In this document: positions 2 to 63,153 of the stretch, one piece after another
How the letters are laid out: each line of letters opens with the position of its first letter
Position numbering within the stretch: the first letter of the stretch is position 1
Origin: a virus
Length of the DNA: 64,000 nucleotides
Strand: one strand, 5' to 3'
IMG/VR virus record: IMGVR_UViG_3300027806_000035
Span: 22,447 to 86,446 of that record
Translations under genes and position numbers: made by a program
The notes under the pieces: generated by a model
Told to the model about the DNA's origin: nothing
The model's input: the letters and a program-made list of their open reading frames with translations, nothing else
The model's database searches: none

Positions 2-208
2 TTACCATTTGATTATCGCCAACATTTTGTAGTTAGTTTTACGCTCAGAGCTTTCTTGCACTTTTTGGATCTTCGCGCCAAGTTGGATGCACAGCTTGAG
101 ATTCGGCAACTTTGCGATCTGATGTGGCCACATCTTGAAAAATGGTCGCCAGAAATCGCAGCTTGGTATAAGGCCACCCGCTACGGCAAAGCGAGGCTTG
201 CGCCATGA
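2..208 (+). CDS. thyX: ThyX-type flavin-dependent thymidylate synthase, C-terminal end only
   Basis: The left edge of the window cuts this gene; an open frame of 68 codons runs from base 2 to a TGA at 206-208. The visible residues follow the ThyX C-terminal pattern: an LRAFLHFLDLR helix followed by AQLEIRQLCDLM, which matches the family pattern in which a hydrophobic helix with FxxLR leads into a segment ending EIRxLA. ThyX makes dTMP from dUMP using FAD, NADPH and methylene-tetrahydrofolate, and is frequent in cyanophages and picocyanobacteria. The catalytic N-terminal part and the RHR motif lie outside the window. Its stop overlaps the start of the sigma factor gene (ATGA), so the two are probably translationally coupled. 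Confidence 0.8.
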   Translation, partial: LPFDYRQHFVVSFTLRAFLHFLDLRAKLDAQLEIRQLCDLMWPHLEKWSPEIAAWYKATRYGKARLAP

Positions 209-1143
209 CATGCGAGGACTACTTGAAGGACATTGGCAGAGTGCCACTGTTGACAAGCGAAGAAGAGATCGTGCTTGGTAATAGAGTCCAAGCAATGATC
301 AGAATGCTTGAATCGCACGGGATTGGCTATCAGCTATCGGCGAGCAATATTGACGAGGCATTGCAGCAGCTCAACCAAGACGAAAAACGGCTTGTAAGAC
401 TTGGAATCAAGGCAAGAAATCGCATGGTTTCAGCCAATATGAGACTCGTCGTTGCGATAGCCAAAAAGTACGTCAACAAGCAAGTCCACATGACAATGCA
501 GGACTTGATTCAAGAAGGTGCTATCGGCCTTACGAGAGCTGCTGAGAAGTTTGATCCAGCAAGGGGTTATAAATTTTCGACGTATGCGTATCTATGGATA
601 AAGCAAGGAATGACAAGGGGGTGTGAGGCCCAAGAGGGCATCATCAAGCTCCCGGCTCACTTGCAGCGTCTGATACGCAGGGCCGGTGAAATGAGAATTC
701 GGCTTGCAGCGAAGCTCGGAAGAGAGCCGAGCTTCAAGGAGCTTTCCGATCAGATGGGAGAAGCTGATCACGAAAAGCTCAGAAGCATCATCTCGATGCA
801 CTTCCTCATGTCACCTGCGATCCTGTGGATTGACAGGTGGGTGGAGACAGGGGATCGGTCATTCTTCACGCTATCAGATCTGGCTGGTGACGGCTACGCA
901 GAAGCCAAAAGCGAAGAGGAGGATACTAGTAAGCTGAACTTTATCATGCTTGCGATTCAAGCACTTGAGCCGATTGACAGGGAGCTTGTCACAAAGAGGC
1001 ATGGAATTGGCTGCGAGCCAACCAATTTCAAGGAGTTATCCGAAGCAACGGGCCTGACAGTACAGGTGGCAAAGGAAAGGTATCAAAAGGCTACAGCAAA
1101 GATACGGTATATCGTTACAACTTTCACCGCGCCTGATGGCTGA
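205..1143 (+). CDS. Group 2 (RpoD-like) sigma factor, cyanobacterial type
   Basis: This 312-residue protein carries the sigma-70 regions in order. Region 1.2 is DYLKDIGRVPLLTSEEE at residues 5-21. Region 2 begins with RLVVAIAKKYVN near 80 and continues through DLIQEGAIGLTRA and FSTYAYLWIKQGMTR (core binding, -10 recognition and melting). Region 3 follows near 150-190, and region 4 near 240-305 has an HTH (NFKELSEATGLTV). The region 1.2 wording is that of cyanobacterial group 2 factors. The segment between regions 3 and 4 is unusual, and region 2.4 reads WIKQGMTRG rather than the common WIRQAITRA, so promoter preference may differ. It probably redirects host RNA polymerase to phage genes. It overlaps the upstream thyX stop and is followed by a strong terminator. 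Confidence 0.9.
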   Translation: MTCEDYLKDIGRVPLLTSEEEIVLGNRVQAMIRMLESHGIGYQLSASNIDEALQQLNQDEKRLVRLGIKARNRMVSANMRLVVAIAKKYVNKQVHMTMQDLIQEGAIGLTRAAEKFDPARGYKFSTYAYLWIKQGMTRGCEAQEGIIKLPAHLQRLIRRAGEMRIRLAAKLGREPSFKELSDQMGEADHEKLRSIISMHFLMSPAILWIDRWVETGDRSFFTLSDLAGDGYAEAKSEEEDTSKLNFIMLAIQALEPIDRELVTKRHGIGCEPTNFKELSEATGLTVQVAKERYQKATAKIRYIVTTFTAPDG

Positions 1144-2646: not shown

Positions 2647-4347
2647 CTAGCGCTGCTGCTCTACACCAAGCCGCTGATCCTGCAGGAAATCTGGCGGGTC
2701 ATCATCCGCTGCCCATTCAGCCACCATTTTCATTAGCTCCCCATGCGTGAAATATCTTTTATCTGTTGGCATCTTAAATGTATTTTCAAAGATATCCCGA
2801 CTTTCTTGCAGTTTTTGCTCAAAAAATCTTGCAGGTTCCTCTGCCGTCCTCCGCTCCTGCTGGGGGGTTCCAGGGTTCCGGTGCTCACACCCCTTATGAG
2901 GGGGGGTATGGTGAACCAGTAGATCCCAGTAATGCCAGTGCTTCTGGATGGTGGCCCAGCCCATGCCGAGGAGCTTCCTGACCTGGTTCTTGCTCAGGCC
3001 TGCGGCTGTGTCCTTCATCTTGCAGAACAGGTCGCGCAGGCGTTCACGGCTTGCATTGAAAAGCCTTTCATTGCGGTTGCTATCTGCACTAACTTTGGCT
3101 TTTGCCGTTTTTCCATTTGCGTTCCAACCTCTTCTAAACGAGCAATTGGCCCAGCTTTTGCACCAACTGGTCAGGTTTTCTTTTGTTTCGTCGGATGCGT
3201 ATTGATCGAATCCAGGTGACTCAAGTGCAAGCTGCTCAACAATGGCTGCAAGTTTCTCGGGTGTTTGGGGCTTGTAGCGCAACCTTGCTTGTGTTGTAAG
3301 CGCTCCAAGGTTATCATTACTTTGGCTGGGGCCAGTCCACGCAATGTTGCCCGACGAGCGCTTGAATTCAGAAATCCCGTTGGACACTTTGCTGCACCGC
3401 TTGCTTTGCTTTCGCAAGCTATCTGCCTGAGATACCAGTTTCTTAAAGTTCAAGCAGCTTTGCGCCTCTTCTACAGCACTTTTCAGTTGCTGCAAGATCA
3501 GGACGGGATGGGTGATCGTTCGGTCGCCAACCACCAGGGCTGAGCCCTCTTGGCCGGGGAGGCGGAAACCGTTGCTCAGAGGGCGCTCAGAGGGGCTTCC
3601 GGCATGGAAGGGCATCTCGCTGGGGAACAGCTCGGCCTGGCCCGCTCCCGTGGCGATTCCGGCCCTCTGGAGAAGCGCACGGCCGATCCAGTGAGCCCGG
3701 AAGGCATGGACCCACTCCGGCAGCGCGATGTAGACGTGCAGCCCACCGGAATTGCTGCTGATAACAAAGTCAACCTTGCAGCCACAGTCTTCTGCAACCT
3801 CTTGCAGTCTCAGTAGTTCTTTGCTTTTGCCGAGTGGGTGCCAGTATTTGCTTGGCTTTTCGGGTTTATTGTCAATGTCAACGACGATAAGCCTTACTTG
3901 CCGCTCATGCCTGACTCCAATGATCTCCGCGTCATCAGAGGCGGCTCGGAATGCAATCTGAGAAAATGACAAGGGATGCCATCCAGACAGCCAGCTGGCG
4001 TCAGGCTTCCTGTAAATATAGTTTAGACAGCTTGTGTTGAAGGCCGAGCTAAGCAGCTTTTCATATTCGCGCTTCAGCTCTTTATCAGTTACTCTAAATT
4101 TAAGACCGTCTTCATCTTCGGCGTCAGCGGCGAGCGAATAGCTCTGCTCAAAGCTTTCCTCGCGGGGATCCCCGAGTCGCAGCCATTCCTCGGGCCACTC
4201 TGGGGGAGATTCTTGCCAGTCGTCCTGGGAACCCATTAAAGTGGGTGCGAGCGTGTTGGTGACGCTCATCCGGTCCGTAAAAAGCGATTCGCGTCGCTTG
4301 GACCGAAAGGGGGGATTCAGGAGGCTTGTCCTGGTCCCCCACCCCAT
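2647..4347 (-). CDS. Archaeo-eukaryotic-type primase (AEP/PrimPol-like) replication protein
   Basis: The protein has 566 residues from the first ATG; an internal ATG at 4269 (residue 27) is equally possible. The AEP signature motifs appear in order. RLIVVDIDN contains the metal-binding pair Asp157/Asp159. VDFVISSNSGGLHVY contains the SxH motif (Ser200 to His204), and a third motif, AELFPSE, lies near 239-245. These mark primase-polymerases of plasmids, phages and conflict systems. A separate C-terminal part (about 440-500) has an HTH-like segment, KNQVRKLLGMGWATIQKHWHYW. No helicase domain is visible in the protein. It probably primes DNA replication of the phage, perhaps at the iteron-type origin near 61.5 kb. 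It is divergent from the gene at 4425. Confidence 0.75.
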   Translation of the reverse strand: MGWGTRTSLLNPPFRSKRRESLFTDRMSVTNTLAPTLMGSQDDWQESPPEWPEEWLRLGDPREESFEQSYSLAADAEDEDGLKFRVTDKELKREYEKLLSSAFNTSCLNYIYRKPDASWLSGWHPLSFSQIAFRAASDDAEIIGVRHERQVRLIVVDIDNKPEKPSKYWHPLGKSKELLRLQEVAEDCGCKVDFVISSNSGGLHVYIALPEWVHAFRAHWIGRALLQRAGIATGAGQAELFPSEMPFHAGSPSERPLSNGFRLPGQEGSALVVGDRTITHPVLILQQLKSAVEEAQSCLNFKKLVSQADSLRKQSKRCSKVSNGISEFKRSSGNIAWTGPSQSNDNLGALTTQARLRYKPQTPEKLAAIVEQLALESPGFDQYASDETKENLTSWCKSWANCSFRRGWNANGKTAKAKVSADSNRNERLFNASRERLRDLFCKMKDTAAGLSKNQVRKLLGMGWATIQKHWHYWDLLVHHTPPHKGCEHRNPGTPQQERRTAEEPARFFEQKLQESRDIFENTFKMPTDKRYFTHGELMKMVAEWAADDDPPDFLQDQRLGVEQQR

Positions 4348-45720: not shown

Positions 45721-47601
45721 TCACCTCCAACGACCGCCATGGCCCGTCCTCATTCCCGCCCGCTGGAACACCTGCCAAATCAGATAGCGAAGCGCGTCAC
45801 CAGCATGTGAGTAATCGGTTGCGCCACCCTTACTCGGCTTCAACGTTTTACTGTCATACGACCAGCGCTCAGCGGAGCTGATTGTATTGTGGCAGGTTGT
45901 TGGATTCAAGAGCACCAACCCACGGTGCATGTGAACGTTTGCATGGGCCAGTGTTTCAGCGATCGGTGGGTTGCGGCGTTCCGCAATGACTTGCACACCA
46001 GCTGCCCTGAGGATTTCGTGATCGCTCTGGGTTGAAGATGTGGAATCATGTGAGCCGCTGGCATCCGGGTAGCAAGTGATCAGACCAGAGGAAAGATGAT
46101 GCGGATACTTTTCGCGAAGATGGGCGACAAGCGCAAACGTATCGGCAACCTTGGACTCAGCAAAGCAGTGAAGCTGCTGACCAGCAGGTCCGGCCTTAAT
46201 CACTCCGTACACCGCATGACACTGACCAACGTTGAAGTCAGCGCCAAATACGATTCGCTCATTACGTTCTGGCACAAAGATGCCAGTTGTATGCTTGGCC
46301 CTGTCAAACTCGTAGAAGACGGTCGCTGACTCAAGGTTGACAAACTCACCGTTGAGATACGCCTTGATAAGCTGTGGATGGTATTTTGTTTTGAGGTCTT
46401 CAACGAAGCCTGGATCAAGATAGGGATTGTCTTCTGACTTTCCACGATACAACTTCTTGTTGTCAGCTTTTTGCTCCTCAAAGAAGGTGTACATCCAGCC
46501 GTAGCCTTCTGGCGTGGATGCTGCAACGATCTGCGGACAGTTGCCAACACGAACACGGCCTTGCAGCTTGATCATTGCCTTTTCGGCGACTTCAGCCCTT
46601 GTCGTATCGGTTTCGTCAGTTGCGATACTTGCAGCGTTGACGCCAATGAGACGCTCGTAGTTCTCCATTGAACGGAGAAGTACAGGGGTTTCGCCGCCCG
46701 GAAGCAGAAGCTTAAAACTTGGCCGTGGCGATGCCTTAAAGGTATGTGGAATTGCGTATTTATCCAGTACCTCGTTCCACTTTGGTAGCGCAACGTCATC
46801 AATCAGTGGAATGGTTGGCTCAAGGAAGAGATGTGTAAAGCCCTGGGAGCGGAAGCAGAGCAATAACTGCTTCATTACAAGGCTGTACGTCTTGCCTGAG
46901 TTGTGGTTTAGGATGCCGTGAGCTTCGTAGTGATTCCAGAGCGGAACATGAAGATCGTAGAAATCATCATCCCTCACATACTCAATGGCGGCAATATTCG
47001 ACCATCCATATTCGCGACTTGACAAGAAGGCATCCGTGTCACCTTGGATGCCAAGCTCCCTAATTCTATTACCAACAAAGATTGCCCATGGGCTCGGCAT
47101 ATTGAGCCGCTCTTCTGCGCCATTTCTGCGAACAGCAATTGGAGTCTCCTTGTAAATATCTCCGAGCTTACGCCACCCAAGCAGTGTTAAAAACTTGTGC
47201 TCTTTGGTAACAATAATGCTGCATCCATTTGCAGTCGTTACCCTGAAAAGTGAAGCAACGCCTTTCCTGTAAGCGGGCGAAGCTTCAGCTGTGCCGCCAA
47301 TAGTTTGAACTTGAATTGTCGCCTCCGTCAGTTCTTTAATGGGTGTGCCGTTGATGAGTGTTTCACCAGCGACGCACCCGTAGCCCCCACAGAACCCGAC
47401 GTACTTATGCTGAAAGTCCTGGACGAACGCTCTTTGATATGGTAGCAGGTCTTCGAGTATCTTGATTTCAGCCGCTTCTGTGTCGAAGCTGGAGTTCGCA
47501 CGCTTTCTCAGTTTCGTCAGGATCTCCGTGCTGTGCAGCAAGCCGAGGGATCGAGCCGCTGCGCGATCGGCGTAGGCATTGGCCTTGGTCCTGGCGGGCA
47601 T
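45721..47601 (-). CDS. terL: Large terminase subunit interrupted by a mini-intein
   Basis: The precursor has 626 residues: N-extein 1-75, intein 76-234, C-extein 235-626 (spliced protein 467 residues). Splicing joins CGGYG to SGKTYSLVMKQ and restores the Walker A P-loop GGYGSGKT, so ATPase activity should depend on splicing. Walker B is SIATDETDTTR in the C-extein. The nuclease domain follows (FGADFNVGQCHAVYGVI, YPDASGSHDS and TDYSHAGDALRYLIW). It translocates DNA and cuts concatemers. It is preceded by a hairpin at 47607-47624 and a terminator that separates it from the HNH gene. Confidence 0.95.
   Translation of the reverse strand: MPARTKANAYADRAAARSLGLLHSTEILTKLRKRANSSFDTEAAEIKILEDLLPYQRAFVQDFQHKYVGFCGGYGCVAGETLINGTPIKELTEATIQVQTIGGTAEASPAYRKGVASLFRVTTANGCSIIVTKEHKFLTLLGWRKLGDIYKETPIAVRRNGAEERLNMPSPWAIFVGNRIRELGIQGDTDAFLSSREYGWSNIAAIEYVRDDDFYDLHVPLWNHYEAHGILNHNSGKTYSLVMKQLLLCFRSQGFTHLFLEPTIPLIDDVALPKWNEVLDKYAIPHTFKASPRPSFKLLLPGGETPVLLRSMENYERLIGVNAASIATDETDTTRAEVAEKAMIKLQGRVRVGNCPQIVAASTPEGYGWMYTFFEEQKADNKKLYRGKSEDNPYLDPGFVEDLKTKYHPQLIKAYLNGEFVNLESATVFYEFDRAKHTTGIFVPERNERIVFGADFNVGQCHAVYGVIKAGPAGQQLHCFAESKVADTFALVAHLREKYPHHLSSGLITCYPDASGSHDSTSSTQSDHEILRAAGVQVIAERRNPPIAETLAHANVHMHRGLVLLNPTTCHNTISSAERWSYDSKTLKPSKGGATDYSHAGDALRYLIWQVFQRAGMRTGHGGRWR
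46900..47376 (-). other. Mini-intein coding segment inside terL (159 residues)
   Basis: The intein begins with Cys1 in CVAGETLINGTPI (block A). Block B is VTKEHKFLT, with the Thr-x-x-His pair. Block F is YDLHVPLWNHYEAHG, and block G is ILNHN followed by Ser+1 of the extein. There is no room for, and no sign of, a LAGLIDADG or HNH endonuclease between blocks B and F, so it is a splicing-only element or one that depends on an enzyme supplied in trans. Confidence 0.95.
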
Positions 47602-59540: not shown

Positions 59541-60167
59541 TCAGGTCTCAGGCTGAACCTTAGGATCCTCGGTCGTCAGCCTCACCATACCGTCAGTACT
59601 GACAGTAACGTAACGGCCCGAAAGGTTAGCCATAACCGTCAGAAGCCTGCTCAGGCTTTGCCAGGATTCCACCTTCCTGTAGACAGTGTGGTTAAGGTCT
59701 AGGATTGTCAGAATCCACTCGAGCGAGAGGGGATCCCCTGCTGACAGATTTGCGGGCAGTTGCACGCCATTGTAGGTTCCGTTAATCACGTCGGTCAGGA
59801 TCTGGGCGGAGATAACGGCACGCTTGGAGCTGCGGCGAATAGGGTTCTGGAGAGCCGATGCCTTGGCGGGTCTGCCGTGGGGGAGCTTCCGCGTTGCAAG
59901 GGCGAACGGTGGTTCCATGGCGCGGGCTGCTTCCCTGACCGCCTCTGGCCAGGTGATGGCACCATCACCAGAGCTGCCGCGCTGCCCCCTGACGGGCTCT
60001 CGCAGACTGGCGGGCACAGCGGCACCCATACCACGGAGGATCTCCAGCATTGCCGACTCGCGCCGCGCGGGCTTCTGCTCTGCGATGGGAGTCGCTCCAG
60101 CTTCTGGCGCGGCAGGCTTAATGATCTTGACGGCGCCATTGCGGCGGGACTGAGATGAGGATTGCAT
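59541..60167 (-). CDS. Hypothetical protein near the replication region
   Basis: The protein has 208 residues from ATG at 60167; a longer frame to 60233 runs through the long dyad at 60198-60245 and is rejected. A disordered basic N terminus (SSSQSRRNGAVKIIKPAAPE) is followed by RRESAMLEILRGMGAAVPAS and a helical C-terminal part (LSLEWILTILDLNHTVYRKV, SLSRLLTVMANLSGRYV). The family is not recognised. Its location next to the repeat region suggests a replication or partition role, but this is inference. Confidence 0.5.
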   Translation of the reverse strand: MQSSSQSRRNGAVKIIKPAAPEAGATPIAEQKPARRESAMLEILRGMGAAVPASLREPVRGQRGSSGDGAITWPEAVREAARAMEPPFALATRKLPHGRPAKASALQNPIRRSSKRAVISAQILTDVINGTYNGVQLPANLSAGDPLSLEWILTILDLNHTVYRKVESWQSLSRLLTVMANLSGRYVTVSTDGMVRLTTEDPKVQPET

Positions 60168-60197
60168 GGTGTTAGTTGGGAGGGGTGATAGGGGGGA

Positions 60198-60245
60198 GAT
60201 TCCCCTAGGGTGCCAGACTTTAAGGACTGGCACAGTAGGGGAATC
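60198..60245 (-). other. Long dyad (19-bp arms with two mismatched positions)
   Basis: The outer arms GATTCCCCTA/TAGGGGAATC (10 bp, perfect) and the inner arms GTGCCAG/CTGGCAC (7 bp, perfect) enclose a 10-base loop, with a 2-base mismatch between the two stems. It lies between two minus-strand genes. No T-run follows, so a terminator function alone does not explain it. Confidence 0.75.
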
Positions 60246-60250
60246 TATGA

Positions 60251-60529
60251 TTAGCGGTTGCGCGTTTTAATCAAGTAACCGTCAGAATCAAGGCCATAGA
60301 CTTTTCGACTCTCGCCAGTTAGCAGGCTAACGGCGTCCCGCGCCTCGTGCAAAAAGCGAAAAGCGCCATTAACGGTCAACCATCCGACAATCCTAGTGTC
60401 GCCGAACGTATCTGTACGGCAGACTGCGGCACCATCGTTTGCCGCCTCCCATAGGCCTACGGCGAGGGGAGCAGTCCGACTCTCAGCGCAGGGGCCGTCA
60501 ACTGGTGAGATAAAGGGGAATCCTTCCAT
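60251..60529 (-). CDS. Small hypothetical protein
   Basis: The protein has 92 residues from ATG at 60529; a longer frame to 60655 is low complexity. It starts MEGFPFISPVDGPCAESRTA and has a beta-rich middle (TRIVGWLTVNGAFRFLHEAR) and an LLTGESRKVYGLDSDGYLIK end. The family is not recognised. It is the first gene on the minus strand left of the repeat region. Confidence 0.5.
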   Translation of the reverse strand: MEGFPFISPVDGPCAESRTAPLAVGLWEAANDGAAVCRTDTFGDTRIVGWLTVNGAFRFLHEARDAVSLLTGESRKVYGLDSDGYLIKTRNR

Positions 60530-61437
60530 GGGGAACCTAGGGCTCTGGTTTGCGTGAAACCGGCGGTGAGAGAGACCTACGGCCCCGCCCCCCCGGTTCC
60601 CATATTGTACGGCATGGTGTCCCGGTTTGCAAGCGATCGGCCGGACGGATCCCACAAGCTACCAAACCGCCGATAGCCCATAAAGTTAGCTAGTGGCACA
60701 AAATAGCCCGCTAACTCACTCTATAGGCTGCGGAACCGTCAAAAATGCTCGCTGTAGCTTGTGACCGCGACAGTCTGCCGTACGTTCAGCGCAGATCAGG
60801 ATGCGGCTCAAACAAAAACTAACACGAATCGCACCATACAGTTACGCTAACCTAACCGCCGTTACAGTTACGCTCGAAGCTAACAGCAAGCTCAGCACAC
60901 CTTGCAGTTGAGCTAACGTCTCGCCGTTACAGTCTCGCCAGGACTGTTAGCCTGTCAGGCAGGTAGGCTCTCACGCTTTACAGTCACGCTCCGCTGCTAG
61001 TCTCACCAGGATTGTAAGGTTACGCCTACCGTAGTTTCCGCACCATACAGTTACGGCACCTTCTACAGTCTGGCAGGTTAGCTTGTGACGCTAGCAGGTA
61101 AGATCGGCCAGAGTTAGCTTAGTTGTAAGGTTAGCTAGTCTGGCAGGTTAGTTACGCTCATTCAGGTAAGTTTCGCCCGGATAGTGAACACAACAGATAC
61201 GCTAGGCTAGTGTATAGGTTAGCTTGCGCAAGTTACAGTTACAGATACTAGCCACAAGTTACAGTTACAGTAGCGCCAAGATTAACGTTCTGTCAGGTTA
61301 GGCTAGCGCCGGTCAAGTTAGGCTAGGCTCCGATCAAGCCAGTAGCCGATCAACCCAGCCAGCCTGTCAGATAGGTTAGGCTTCAGGTTAGCTAGTGGCC
61401 GCGGCGTTAAGTTAGCTGGCGCGATAGGTTCCGCCAG
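60530..61437. repeat. Non-coding region with two interspersed short-repeat families
   Basis: No convincing gene is present. One family has the core TACAGTTACGC or close variants (for example 60837-60847, 60863-60873, 60928-60938, 60979-60989, 61046-61056, 61064-61074). Another family is GGTTAGCT and close variants (for example 61077-61082 and 61130-61136). They are irregularly spaced and mostly read in one direction. They look like binding sites or multiply duplicated short elements in a replication or regulatory region. Confidence 0.6.
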
Positions 61438-61740
61438 GGAATGCAACTTAGCGGCGCAGCAAGCTAGCAATGAATGCAGTTGACAGGGGCGAATGCAACT
61501 CAGTGGTGAATGCAAGTTAGTAGTGAATGCAACTTGCGGGTGAATGCAAGTTAGACATGAATGGCATTTAGCAAGGGTGAATGGCATTTATACATGAATG
61601 GCAAGCTAGCAGTGAATGCAACTTTACGCATGAATGGCAAATTGACATGAATGGCATTTAGCAACGTGAATGGCAAGTTAGTGTGAATGGCCTCCAAGCG
61701 TGTGAATGGCGAAACCGATCAACAAGGGGAGTGAATGTTA
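61438..61740 (+). repeat. Iteron array: 16 copies of a TGAATGGCA-type unit
   Basis: Units begin at 61438, 61471, 61490, 61507, 61524, 61541, 61558, 61578, 61595, 61613, 61631, 61648, 61667, 61684, 61703 and 61732. Each starts (T)GAATG and usually continues GCAAnTTA or GCATTTA. Most spacings are 17-20 bp, close to two helical turns, so bound proteins would lie on one face. The array ends at the stop of the adjacent winged-helix gene, and weaker units continue inside it (about 61811 and 61829). Confidence 0.85.
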
Positions 61741-62088
61741 CTTTCCTTGCTCGCCAGCTTCAATCCAGAGCCTGTACTTAAATGTTCGACGTTGAGGTGA
61801 TGGAGTAACAGTGAATGTTGGATCAACCATGAATCCAACCATGTCCTTGTACTTTACTTTGCGAATGTAATTTAACTTGCGCAGCTTAGCAAGTGAGCGA
61901 TAGGTAGCCTTGAAATGAAAGCCAAGATTCTCAGATAGTTGCGCTGGCGTCAAGCCAATGATGATGCGAGAGTTGGACAGGATTACAAGGTAGAGAAGAA
62001 TGGTAAGGTCATTACCAGCAATGCCAAGTAGTTTACGGTTGCAGATAATTGATTGCATACGCTGTTCAGGACGCTGAGGTTTGTTCAT
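61738..62088 (-). CDS. Winged-helix protein, possible replication initiator
   Basis: The protein has 116 residues. LTILLYLVILSNSRIIIGLT, then PAQLSENLGFHFKATYRSLA and KLRKLNYIRKVKYKDMVGFM form helix, HTH and wing, similar to RepL-type plasmid initiators and other wHTH regulators. The N terminus (NKPQRPEQRMQSIICNRKLL) is basic. It lies on the minus strand with its 3' end touching the iteron array. Binding to the iterons is inferred from this arrangement. The protein is short compared with many Rep proteins. Confidence 0.65.
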   Translation of the reverse strand: MNKPQRPEQRMQSIICNRKLLGIAGNDLTILLYLVILSNSRIIIGLTPAQLSENLGFHFKATYRSLAKLRKLNYIRKVKYKDMVGFMVDPTFTVTPSPQRRTFKYRLWIEAGEQGK

Positions 62089-62382
62089 TTTACAGCCTTC
62101 AGCCAGCTTGGCAGGGAGGGAACGTTTTGTAGAAAACAGCGTACCATAGAACCCAGTCAGGGACTGGCCCGGTCATTCCACTTTGTAGAATATCTGAGTT
62201 TGAGATCCCTTGCGCCGCAGTCGATCTGAGGTCGTGCTTTTATACCAGTTAGATGGGTAAGGAACAGGGGGGTCTGGCAGGTAGGCGGTCAGGTAGGCAG
62301 GGGGGTCGCGAAGTACAGGTACTCAGCTGGACGTGCCGTTAATGAGTACCTGTAAGTTTGCTGACGTGCAGACAAAAGTTAC
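62089..62382. other. Non-coding spacer with dyads
   Basis: No gene is seen. It holds a small dyad (CCAGTC/GACTGG near 62151) and the large dyad at 62315-62353. Repeated AGGTAGGC units lie near 62278-62298. Confidence 0.5.
62315..62353. promoter_or_regulatory. Perfect 11-bp dyad with 17-base spacer
   Basis: The arms ACAGGTACTCA and TGAGTACCTGT flank a 17-base spacer. It lies 30 bases past the stop of the small-terminase-like gene, without a T-run. The TGAGTACC core also occurs in the hairpin before terL. It may be a protein operator or a DNA-packaging site. Confidence 0.6.
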
Positions 62383-63153
62383 TTAGTCAACTTCAGACTC
62401 TTCGATTGCTGCAAGTAACTGGTCTACACCAAGTGCATTACTTTGTAGATTCTTTCCTACTTCAGCCAACTTGGATGCTGCATTTAACATTGAGGGAAGA
62501 TCACGTACATCGAGATCCTGTTCACTATCCAGCAATTTAGTCAACTTGCGATCTGCCAGGTATGCGATACGTGCTGCATTTAGGCTAAGTTGATGGCCAA
62601 TCTGTTCCTGCTGCTCACGGTATGCTTCCAGTCTGTTAAGATGCTTCTGATGACGAGCATCCTGTACTTCATTTAACTTTTTGCTGAGTTGGTACCTATC
62701 AAAATCCCCCACCCTAACCAACCAGTTATTGCGTTTAGCTACTTGTTGTAGTTTAGAAATGCTGAAATTGGTAATCTGGGATACATATTGTAGTGAACGT
62801 CCCCCACCCAACCTACAATAACAGGAGAACAATTCAAATTCTTTATCAGACTCAGAAGGTGCAAGGACACTATTTTTCAACCAAGTAGCATTACGGTTAG
62901 TGGTAGTGGAGGTAGTGAGGCTAGTGTTTTCCGAGAGGTTGTTACTTTGTTGGGGGGTGTTATTTGCTACATTAAGAGTATCAGTATTGACGGTAGAGGG
63001 AGCTAGATGTTCAGTTTCTGTAAGCTCCTCACTATTTAATTCCTGTTCATCTACAAGTTCACCGAACTCATTGGTTGTTAAGTTAATAGCATCATTTTCG
63101 ATTTCTTCTGCATTTTGGAGTAGTTCCTCGAAATTAAAGTCAGAAGGTTCCAC
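62383..63153 (-). CDS. Putative small terminase subunit
   Basis: The protein has 256 residues from GTG at 63153. The N-terminal 90 residues are acidic and Asn/Thr-rich (disordered). The domain from about 100 matches terminase small-subunit proteins: FELFSCYCRLGGGRSLQYVS, then LQQVAKRNNWLVRVGDFDRY and a long helix to a C-terminal tail (LSMLNAASKLAEVGKNLQSN-like). The 'RSL..va...W..R...yD' order is the HTH of this family. It lies about 15 kb from terL. A sigma-70 promoter is just upstream. Confidence 0.6.
   Translation of the reverse strand: MEPSDFNFEELLQNAEEIENDAINLTTNEFGELVDEQELNSEELTETEHLAPSTVNTDTLNVANNTPQQSNNLSENTSLTTSTTTNRNATWLKNSVLAPSESDKEFELFSCYCRLGGGRSLQYVSQITNFSISKLQQVAKRNNWLVRVGDFDRYQLSKKLNEVQDARHQKHLNRLEAYREQQEQIGHQLSLNAARIAYLADRKLTKLLDSEQDLDVRDLPSMLNAASKLAEVGKNLQSNALGVDQLLAAIEESEVD

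Follow-up and report, generated by a model that had tools for sequence, protein, structure and literature searches.

The array locus and its genomic setting

The window, that is, the whole 64-kb stretch of DNA that was analyzed, corresponds to bases 22447-86446 of an 86,446-bp IMG/VR record and, judging from the relatives of its TerS and winged-helix (wHTH) proteins, probably comes from an uncultured phage with a cyanobacterial host. The contigs IMGVR 3300005528_000235 and 3300031758_000836 bridge both ends of the record via a 12,151-bp stretch that contains small ORFs only, with 99.98-100% identity to the record over the overlaps, and the map of the window genome (G000) closes as a circle of 98,597 bp. 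A tRNA search retrieved none, and neither an integrase in the window genome nor a family-A DNA polymerase was detected above the respective cut-offs. The locus under study and the gene for TerL comprise the following features:

45721-47601, minus strand: TerL
59541-60233, minus strand: P0003, a protein in the 200-250 aa range at the end of the locus, with one clear homologue
60251-60655, minus strand: P0004, small hypothetical protein (ORF) downstream of the second repeat block
60656-61437, no strand assigned: second repeat block, non-coding, with irregular GTTACAG / AGGTTAGCT repeats (k-mer enrichment)
61438-61740, plus strand: array of 16 (T)GAATG(G)CA units in a single direction, 17-20 bp spacing
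61738-62088, minus strand: P0001, predicted winged-helix DNA-binding protein of 116 aa (homologues and AF2 model)
62314-62354, no strand assigned: 12-bp perfect inverted repeat with a 17-nt loop between the TerS and wHTH genes, possible terminator
62383-63153, minus strand: P0002, TerS homologue of 256 aa (phrog_6299, E 6.6e-11)

The GAATG cores number 16 on the plus strand (61439-61733) and 0 on the minus strand; TGAATG is present in 14 of these and GAATG(G)CA in 13, and the successive core spacings are 33, 19, 17, 17, 17, 17, 20, 17, 18, 18, 17, 19, 17, 19 and 29 bp, which bears out the description of 16 units, mostly 17-20 bp apart, in an earlier sequence-only reading of this DNA. All 11 occurrences of TGAATG(G)CA on the plus strand of the window fall inside the array. 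On the opposite strand, which encodes TerS and the wHTH protein, the unit reads CATTCAY, and CATTCA is found 14 times in a 630-nt stretch, compared to 0.1 times on average and at most 2 times after dinucleotide shuffling. The array also abuts the small wHTH gene, as had been stated: the 116-aa ORF and the last unit (61733-61740) overlap at the stop codon, the array being located 3′ of this gene rather than upstream of it. A search of Rfam gave no match, and a DNA-level search among phages returned nothing.

The distance from the array to the TerS gene is 0.6 kb. The relatives of P0002 detected by tblastn are TerS proteins of the cyanophages S-CBS2, PSS2 and S-CRES and of the Aphanizomenon phage CL131, and alignment with the S-CBS2, PSS2 and CL131 proteins reveals a TerS-type HTH; the HTH and C-terminal residues are invariant among the relatives, and the conservation of the recognition helix (KNNW) is suggestive, although not decisive, as to which protein reads the array. 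The genes for TerL, portal and major capsid protein lie 14-22 kb from the array on the same strand; the distance around the circle to those for DnaB, a recombinase-type SSAP and an exonuclease is some 30 kb. At the other end of the locus, P0003 has one clear homologue, in the related genome G003 (31% identity), and ORFs of similar size occupy the same place in most relatives.

Conservation in related phages

Relatives were gathered through the major capsid protein and TerL, followed by alignment of TerS. A homologue of the wHTH protein follows TerS at all 28 TerS loci, which include near-duplicates and amount to roughly 20 distinct ones (hmmsearch E 1e-12 to 1e-82), and a CATTCAY array with 3-20 copies of CATTCA lies past the wHTH gene at 25 of the 25 loci with enough flank, all of them on metagenomic contigs the ends of which are often near repeats. 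Nearly all copies point in the direction of TerS, and in most loci the array starts within tens of bases of the wHTH stop codon. Across the 288 units compared, only CATTCA and the next pyrimidine are common whereas the flanks diverge, and the spacing, which ranges from 4 to >60 bp, is group-specific (13, 14, 17 or 20-22 bp). In four genomes the array is the sole dense non-coding direct-repeat array detected, when other repeat tracts are taken as coding on the basis of their G+C-rich 12-15-bp units. The array that is paired with the wHTH protein is real, conserved, iteron-like and unique in the genome.

In the genomes G003, G004 and G034, the locus is located upstream of the TerL-portal-major capsid protein genes on the same strand (in G034, TerL is 3 kb away), and in all four genomes DnaB is separated from the array by about 30 kb or more. 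The arrangement recurs across the phage group, and the array is therefore probably a unique start site, for packaging in the first place and for replication as the second choice.

The winged-helix protein

The 116-aa ORF can be considered a real gene because homologues are present in 28 of the 28 related loci and because a confident winged-helix model was obtained with AF2 when 26 sequences were supplied (pLDDT 91.2); with P0001 alone, the model was useless (pLDDT 34). Sequence searches with P0001 alone produced noise in the PDB and no match among phages and PLSDB plasmids. The matches of its profile to replication-initiation families are weak (phrog_428, 1.4e-5; phrog_270, 4e-5; phrog_186, 1.1e-3; RepL PF05732, E 0.0028), none passes the curated cut-offs of the Rep/O-like families, and they constitute modest evidence because the phage library is rich in wHTH proteins of this kind. 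The fold neighbors in the PDB, none with E <1e-3, are MarR/ArsR/Sar-type regulators and the DnaD N-terminal domain; those in the viral library include uncharacterized phage proteins and a RepL.

The regulators are the closest solved folds, and in most loci the array directly follows the stop codon, on the sense strand, with spacings of 4 to >60 nt, as might be expected if P0001 had a regulatory function and the array served for titration or silencing or as an mRNA 3′-end element, with no role in the initiation of packaging or replication. However, the location of the array 3′ of the gene, together with a densely conserved, genome-unique tract that has a low-stability neighbor, would be unusual for an operator, and such a regulatory tract appears unlikely.

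A combination of a small wHTH protein with an iteron array is also found in the TubR-tubC partition system, and P0001 has a weak match to the TubR profile (4asn, E 0.018), which raises the prospect of a TubR-like protein acting on a tubC-like centromere of a phage-plasmid. The window phage differs from TubR-tubC in its lack of TubZ and in the position of the array, 3′ of the gene: among the 14 genomes or records searched, no tubulin/TubZ and no ParA above the cut-off was detected. The absence of a motor gene disfavors partition, which we consider very improbable. The suggestion in the sequence-only reading that the phage could persist as a phage-plasmid finds no support, on the same grounds and in view of the lack of an integrase in the window genome, of PLSDB matches for the wHTH protein and of relatives of TerS and the major capsid protein in 84,980 prokaryote genomes, in scans that reach fairly close relatives only.

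The wHTH family is not confined to this phage group. A tblastn search with one of the homologues showed that it is also represented in Autographiviridae (T7-like phages), for example in Synechococcus phage S-SRP02 (QTP86369, E 9e-12) and in MedDCM-OCT-S38-C3 (BAQ94468, E 6e-10). In 30 of the 31 Autographiviridae loci, the wHTH gene lies about 380 bp upstream of TerL (maturase B). As with P0001, the wHTH proteins of S-SRP02 and MedDCM-OCT-S38-C3 adjoin the terminase, but their genomes are T7-like and, unlike that of the window phage, lack a CATTCA array; no such array was detected at the Autographiviridae wHTH loci, so that the protein can act without one. The linkage of the wHTH family to terminase genes thus extends over two phage groups that are unrelated to each other, which hints that hypothetical proteins in cultured cyanophages, S-SRP02 being one example, have a function connected with the terminase.

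The second repeat block and a possible replication origin

In the relatives, the CATTCAY array is usually followed by a second repeat block, which is repetitive (7-, 17-, 22-, 27- or 48/49-mers) and often AT-rich. In 20 of the 25 loci, compared to about 3 expected by chance, the least stable 150 bp of the fetched DNA are found no farther than about 1 kb from the array, and in G034 the least stable segment of the whole genome is beside the array. The window genome is the exception: its second block (about 780 bp), which corresponds to the AT-rich or heptamer block of the relatives, is not AT-rich, and the low-stability block is absent. In L124, L127, L131, L132 and L133, heptamer tracts (AGGTTAC, CACGTTG, TAGGTTA; up to 27 copies) are located 3′ of the array. 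These tracts resemble the short tandem heptanucleotide repeats of cyanobacteria; a literature search on such repeats and on cyanophage iterons found nothing useful.

Iterons next to a low-stability repeat block are what an iteron-type origin would look like, in which the wHTH protein would act as the initiator, binding the CATTCAY iterons, melting the AT-rich block and recruiting the phage DnaB. The presence of several direct repeats in one orientation (16 units) agrees with this proposal, as do the recurrent, albeit weak, RepL/O-like matches of the wHTH protein and its resemblance in fold to DnaD and RepL. The plasmid origins listed in a review likewise pair iterons, 2-7 in number and mostly 17-22 bp, with repeat-bearing DUEs (PMC4980987). 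The origins of RK2, P1, F and R6K and the lambda-type origins resemble the window locus in their 17-22 bp direct repeats and winged-helix protein, and AT-rich repeats flank iteron/lambda-type origins and the arrays of the relatives alike. The phage encodes DnaB and an AEP-like primase and therefore needs an origin. The primase of plasmid or phage type that the sequence-only reading placed elsewhere in the genome corresponds to an AEP-type match at 2647-4347, although the match is weak (E 0.0014) and below the Pfam cut-off.

Against an origin stand the position of the array, which is always beside TerS and is far from DnaB in the four genomes and from the exonuclease and the SSAP in the window genome, the missing low-stability block of the window genome and the failure of any wHTH match to exceed a curated cut-off. 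In addition, no DnaA boxes were detected, and the wHTH homologues of T7-like phages sit at TerL. In G000 and G004 the cumulative GC skew reaches its maximum, not its minimum, near the array, and in G003 and G034 it has a local maximum there; this peak is confounded because gene orientation explains much of the skew. The window phage further departs from iteron origins in having just one winged-helix domain (about 110 aa), a 6-7 bp core, the variable spacing seen across its relatives and a location beside the terminase, with 16 units compared to the 2-7 iterons of the reviewed plasmid origins (PMC4980987). Of the earlier proposal of an iteron origin, the genome-unique iteron-like array with its wHTH partner is borne out, and the AT-rich block of most relatives is in its favor, whereas the genomic position, the window genome itself and the terminase linkage of the wHTH family speak against it; replication initiation at the array is less likely than packaging but a serious alternative to it.

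A candidate packaging-initiation site

How a terminase selects the DNA of its phage has been worked out in few cases. We tentatively favor the interpretation of the array as a pac-like packaging-initiation site that is read by the wHTH protein, TerS or both. A pac site is expected at or beside terS, and this is the position found at 28 of the 28 loci; in four genomes it is, moreover, the only dense non-coding direct-repeat array detected, as expected of a genome-unique cis element. The fixed orientation, the adjacency to TerS, the linkage to the terminase, the placement upstream of TerL-portal-major capsid protein and the distance from DnaB all favor packaging. The circular maps, namely the 98.6-kb window genome and those of G004 and G034 with end overlaps of 123-127 bp, fit either pac or cos packaging.

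The closest parallel is with phage SPP1, in which the pac site consists of direct repeats at the terS gene (PMC4737164). The pac loci of SPP1 and its relative SF6 resemble the window locus in having direct repeats beside terS and a TerS-family HTH protein encoded adjacent to them. However, the SPP1 repeats form three small sets where terS begins, whereas the window phage has 16 units 3′ of a separate wHTH gene, and in contrast to SPP1/SF6 one fixed core is kept across the window phage group. The DNA-binding domain of the SF6 TerS binds pac repeats without sequence specificity (PMC4737164), which, taken on its own, weighs against a pac array, as do the array-less wHTH proteins of Autographiviridae and the fact that the weak matches are mostly to replication families. 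Combined with the fixed CATTCAY core, the lack of specificity of the SF6 TerS points to a specific reader, and we infer that this reader is the wHTH protein.

Under the packaging interpretation, the TerS gene, the wHTH gene, the array and the repeat block would form one conserved locus. The wHTH protein would bind the CATTCAY units to yield a directional nucleoprotein tract; TerS would then bind this wHTH-array tract, the repeat block that flanks it or both, and would recruit TerL, which would cut the concatemer and start packaging from it. The array, the gene order, their conservation, the predicted fold and the linkage to terminase genes in two phage groups are observed, whereas the binding of the array by the wHTH protein or TerS and the start of packaging at the array are inferred.

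To our knowledge, no known pac site contains 9-20 iteron-like units. It is conceivable, although we would put it forward with some reserve, that recognition involves two components, TerS and a dedicated wHTH protein that reads an iteron-like pac array of 9-20 copies, across a group of probably cyanobacterial phages, with the wHTH protein present also at TerL in T7-like cyanophages; the architecture would have been borrowed from origins, and origin and pac might even occur together. The CATTCAY core and its partner protein represent a directly testable recognition code for the start of packaging (or replication), in a phage group that is widespread and of which the searches retrieved no relatives among prophages or plasmids.

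Additional features of the phage genomes

Several further observations concern the locus and its surroundings. A 50-bp palindrome (84%) between P0004 and P0003 (window positions 60197-60246; ATTCCCCTA...TAGGGGAAT) could be a terminator hairpin. Two tandem 64-bp G-rich repeats occupy non-coding DNA between a plus-strand gene cluster and P0003 (59027-59152), and repeats of similar composition are found past the closing ORF in relatives. At 7482-7694 of L002, a 15-bp unit (CAGGTCGGCACCCCT) occurs 14 times, probably as a coding repeat. In S-SRP02 (L170, 6366-6739), a short ORF (about 75 aa) seems to separate the wHTH gene from that for maturase B; it could be the unannotated small terminase. The window phage encodes an RNA polymerase sigma factor (205-1143, plus strand; phrog_351, E 7.5e-51), of which G003, G004 and G034 have homologues. 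Finally, an apparent mini-intein at residues ~76-231 of TerL splits the Walker A motif (GGYG / CVAGETLINGT...NHYEAHGILNHN / SGKT); among relatives, the same site carries no insert in L076 and a longer intein-like insert in L068.
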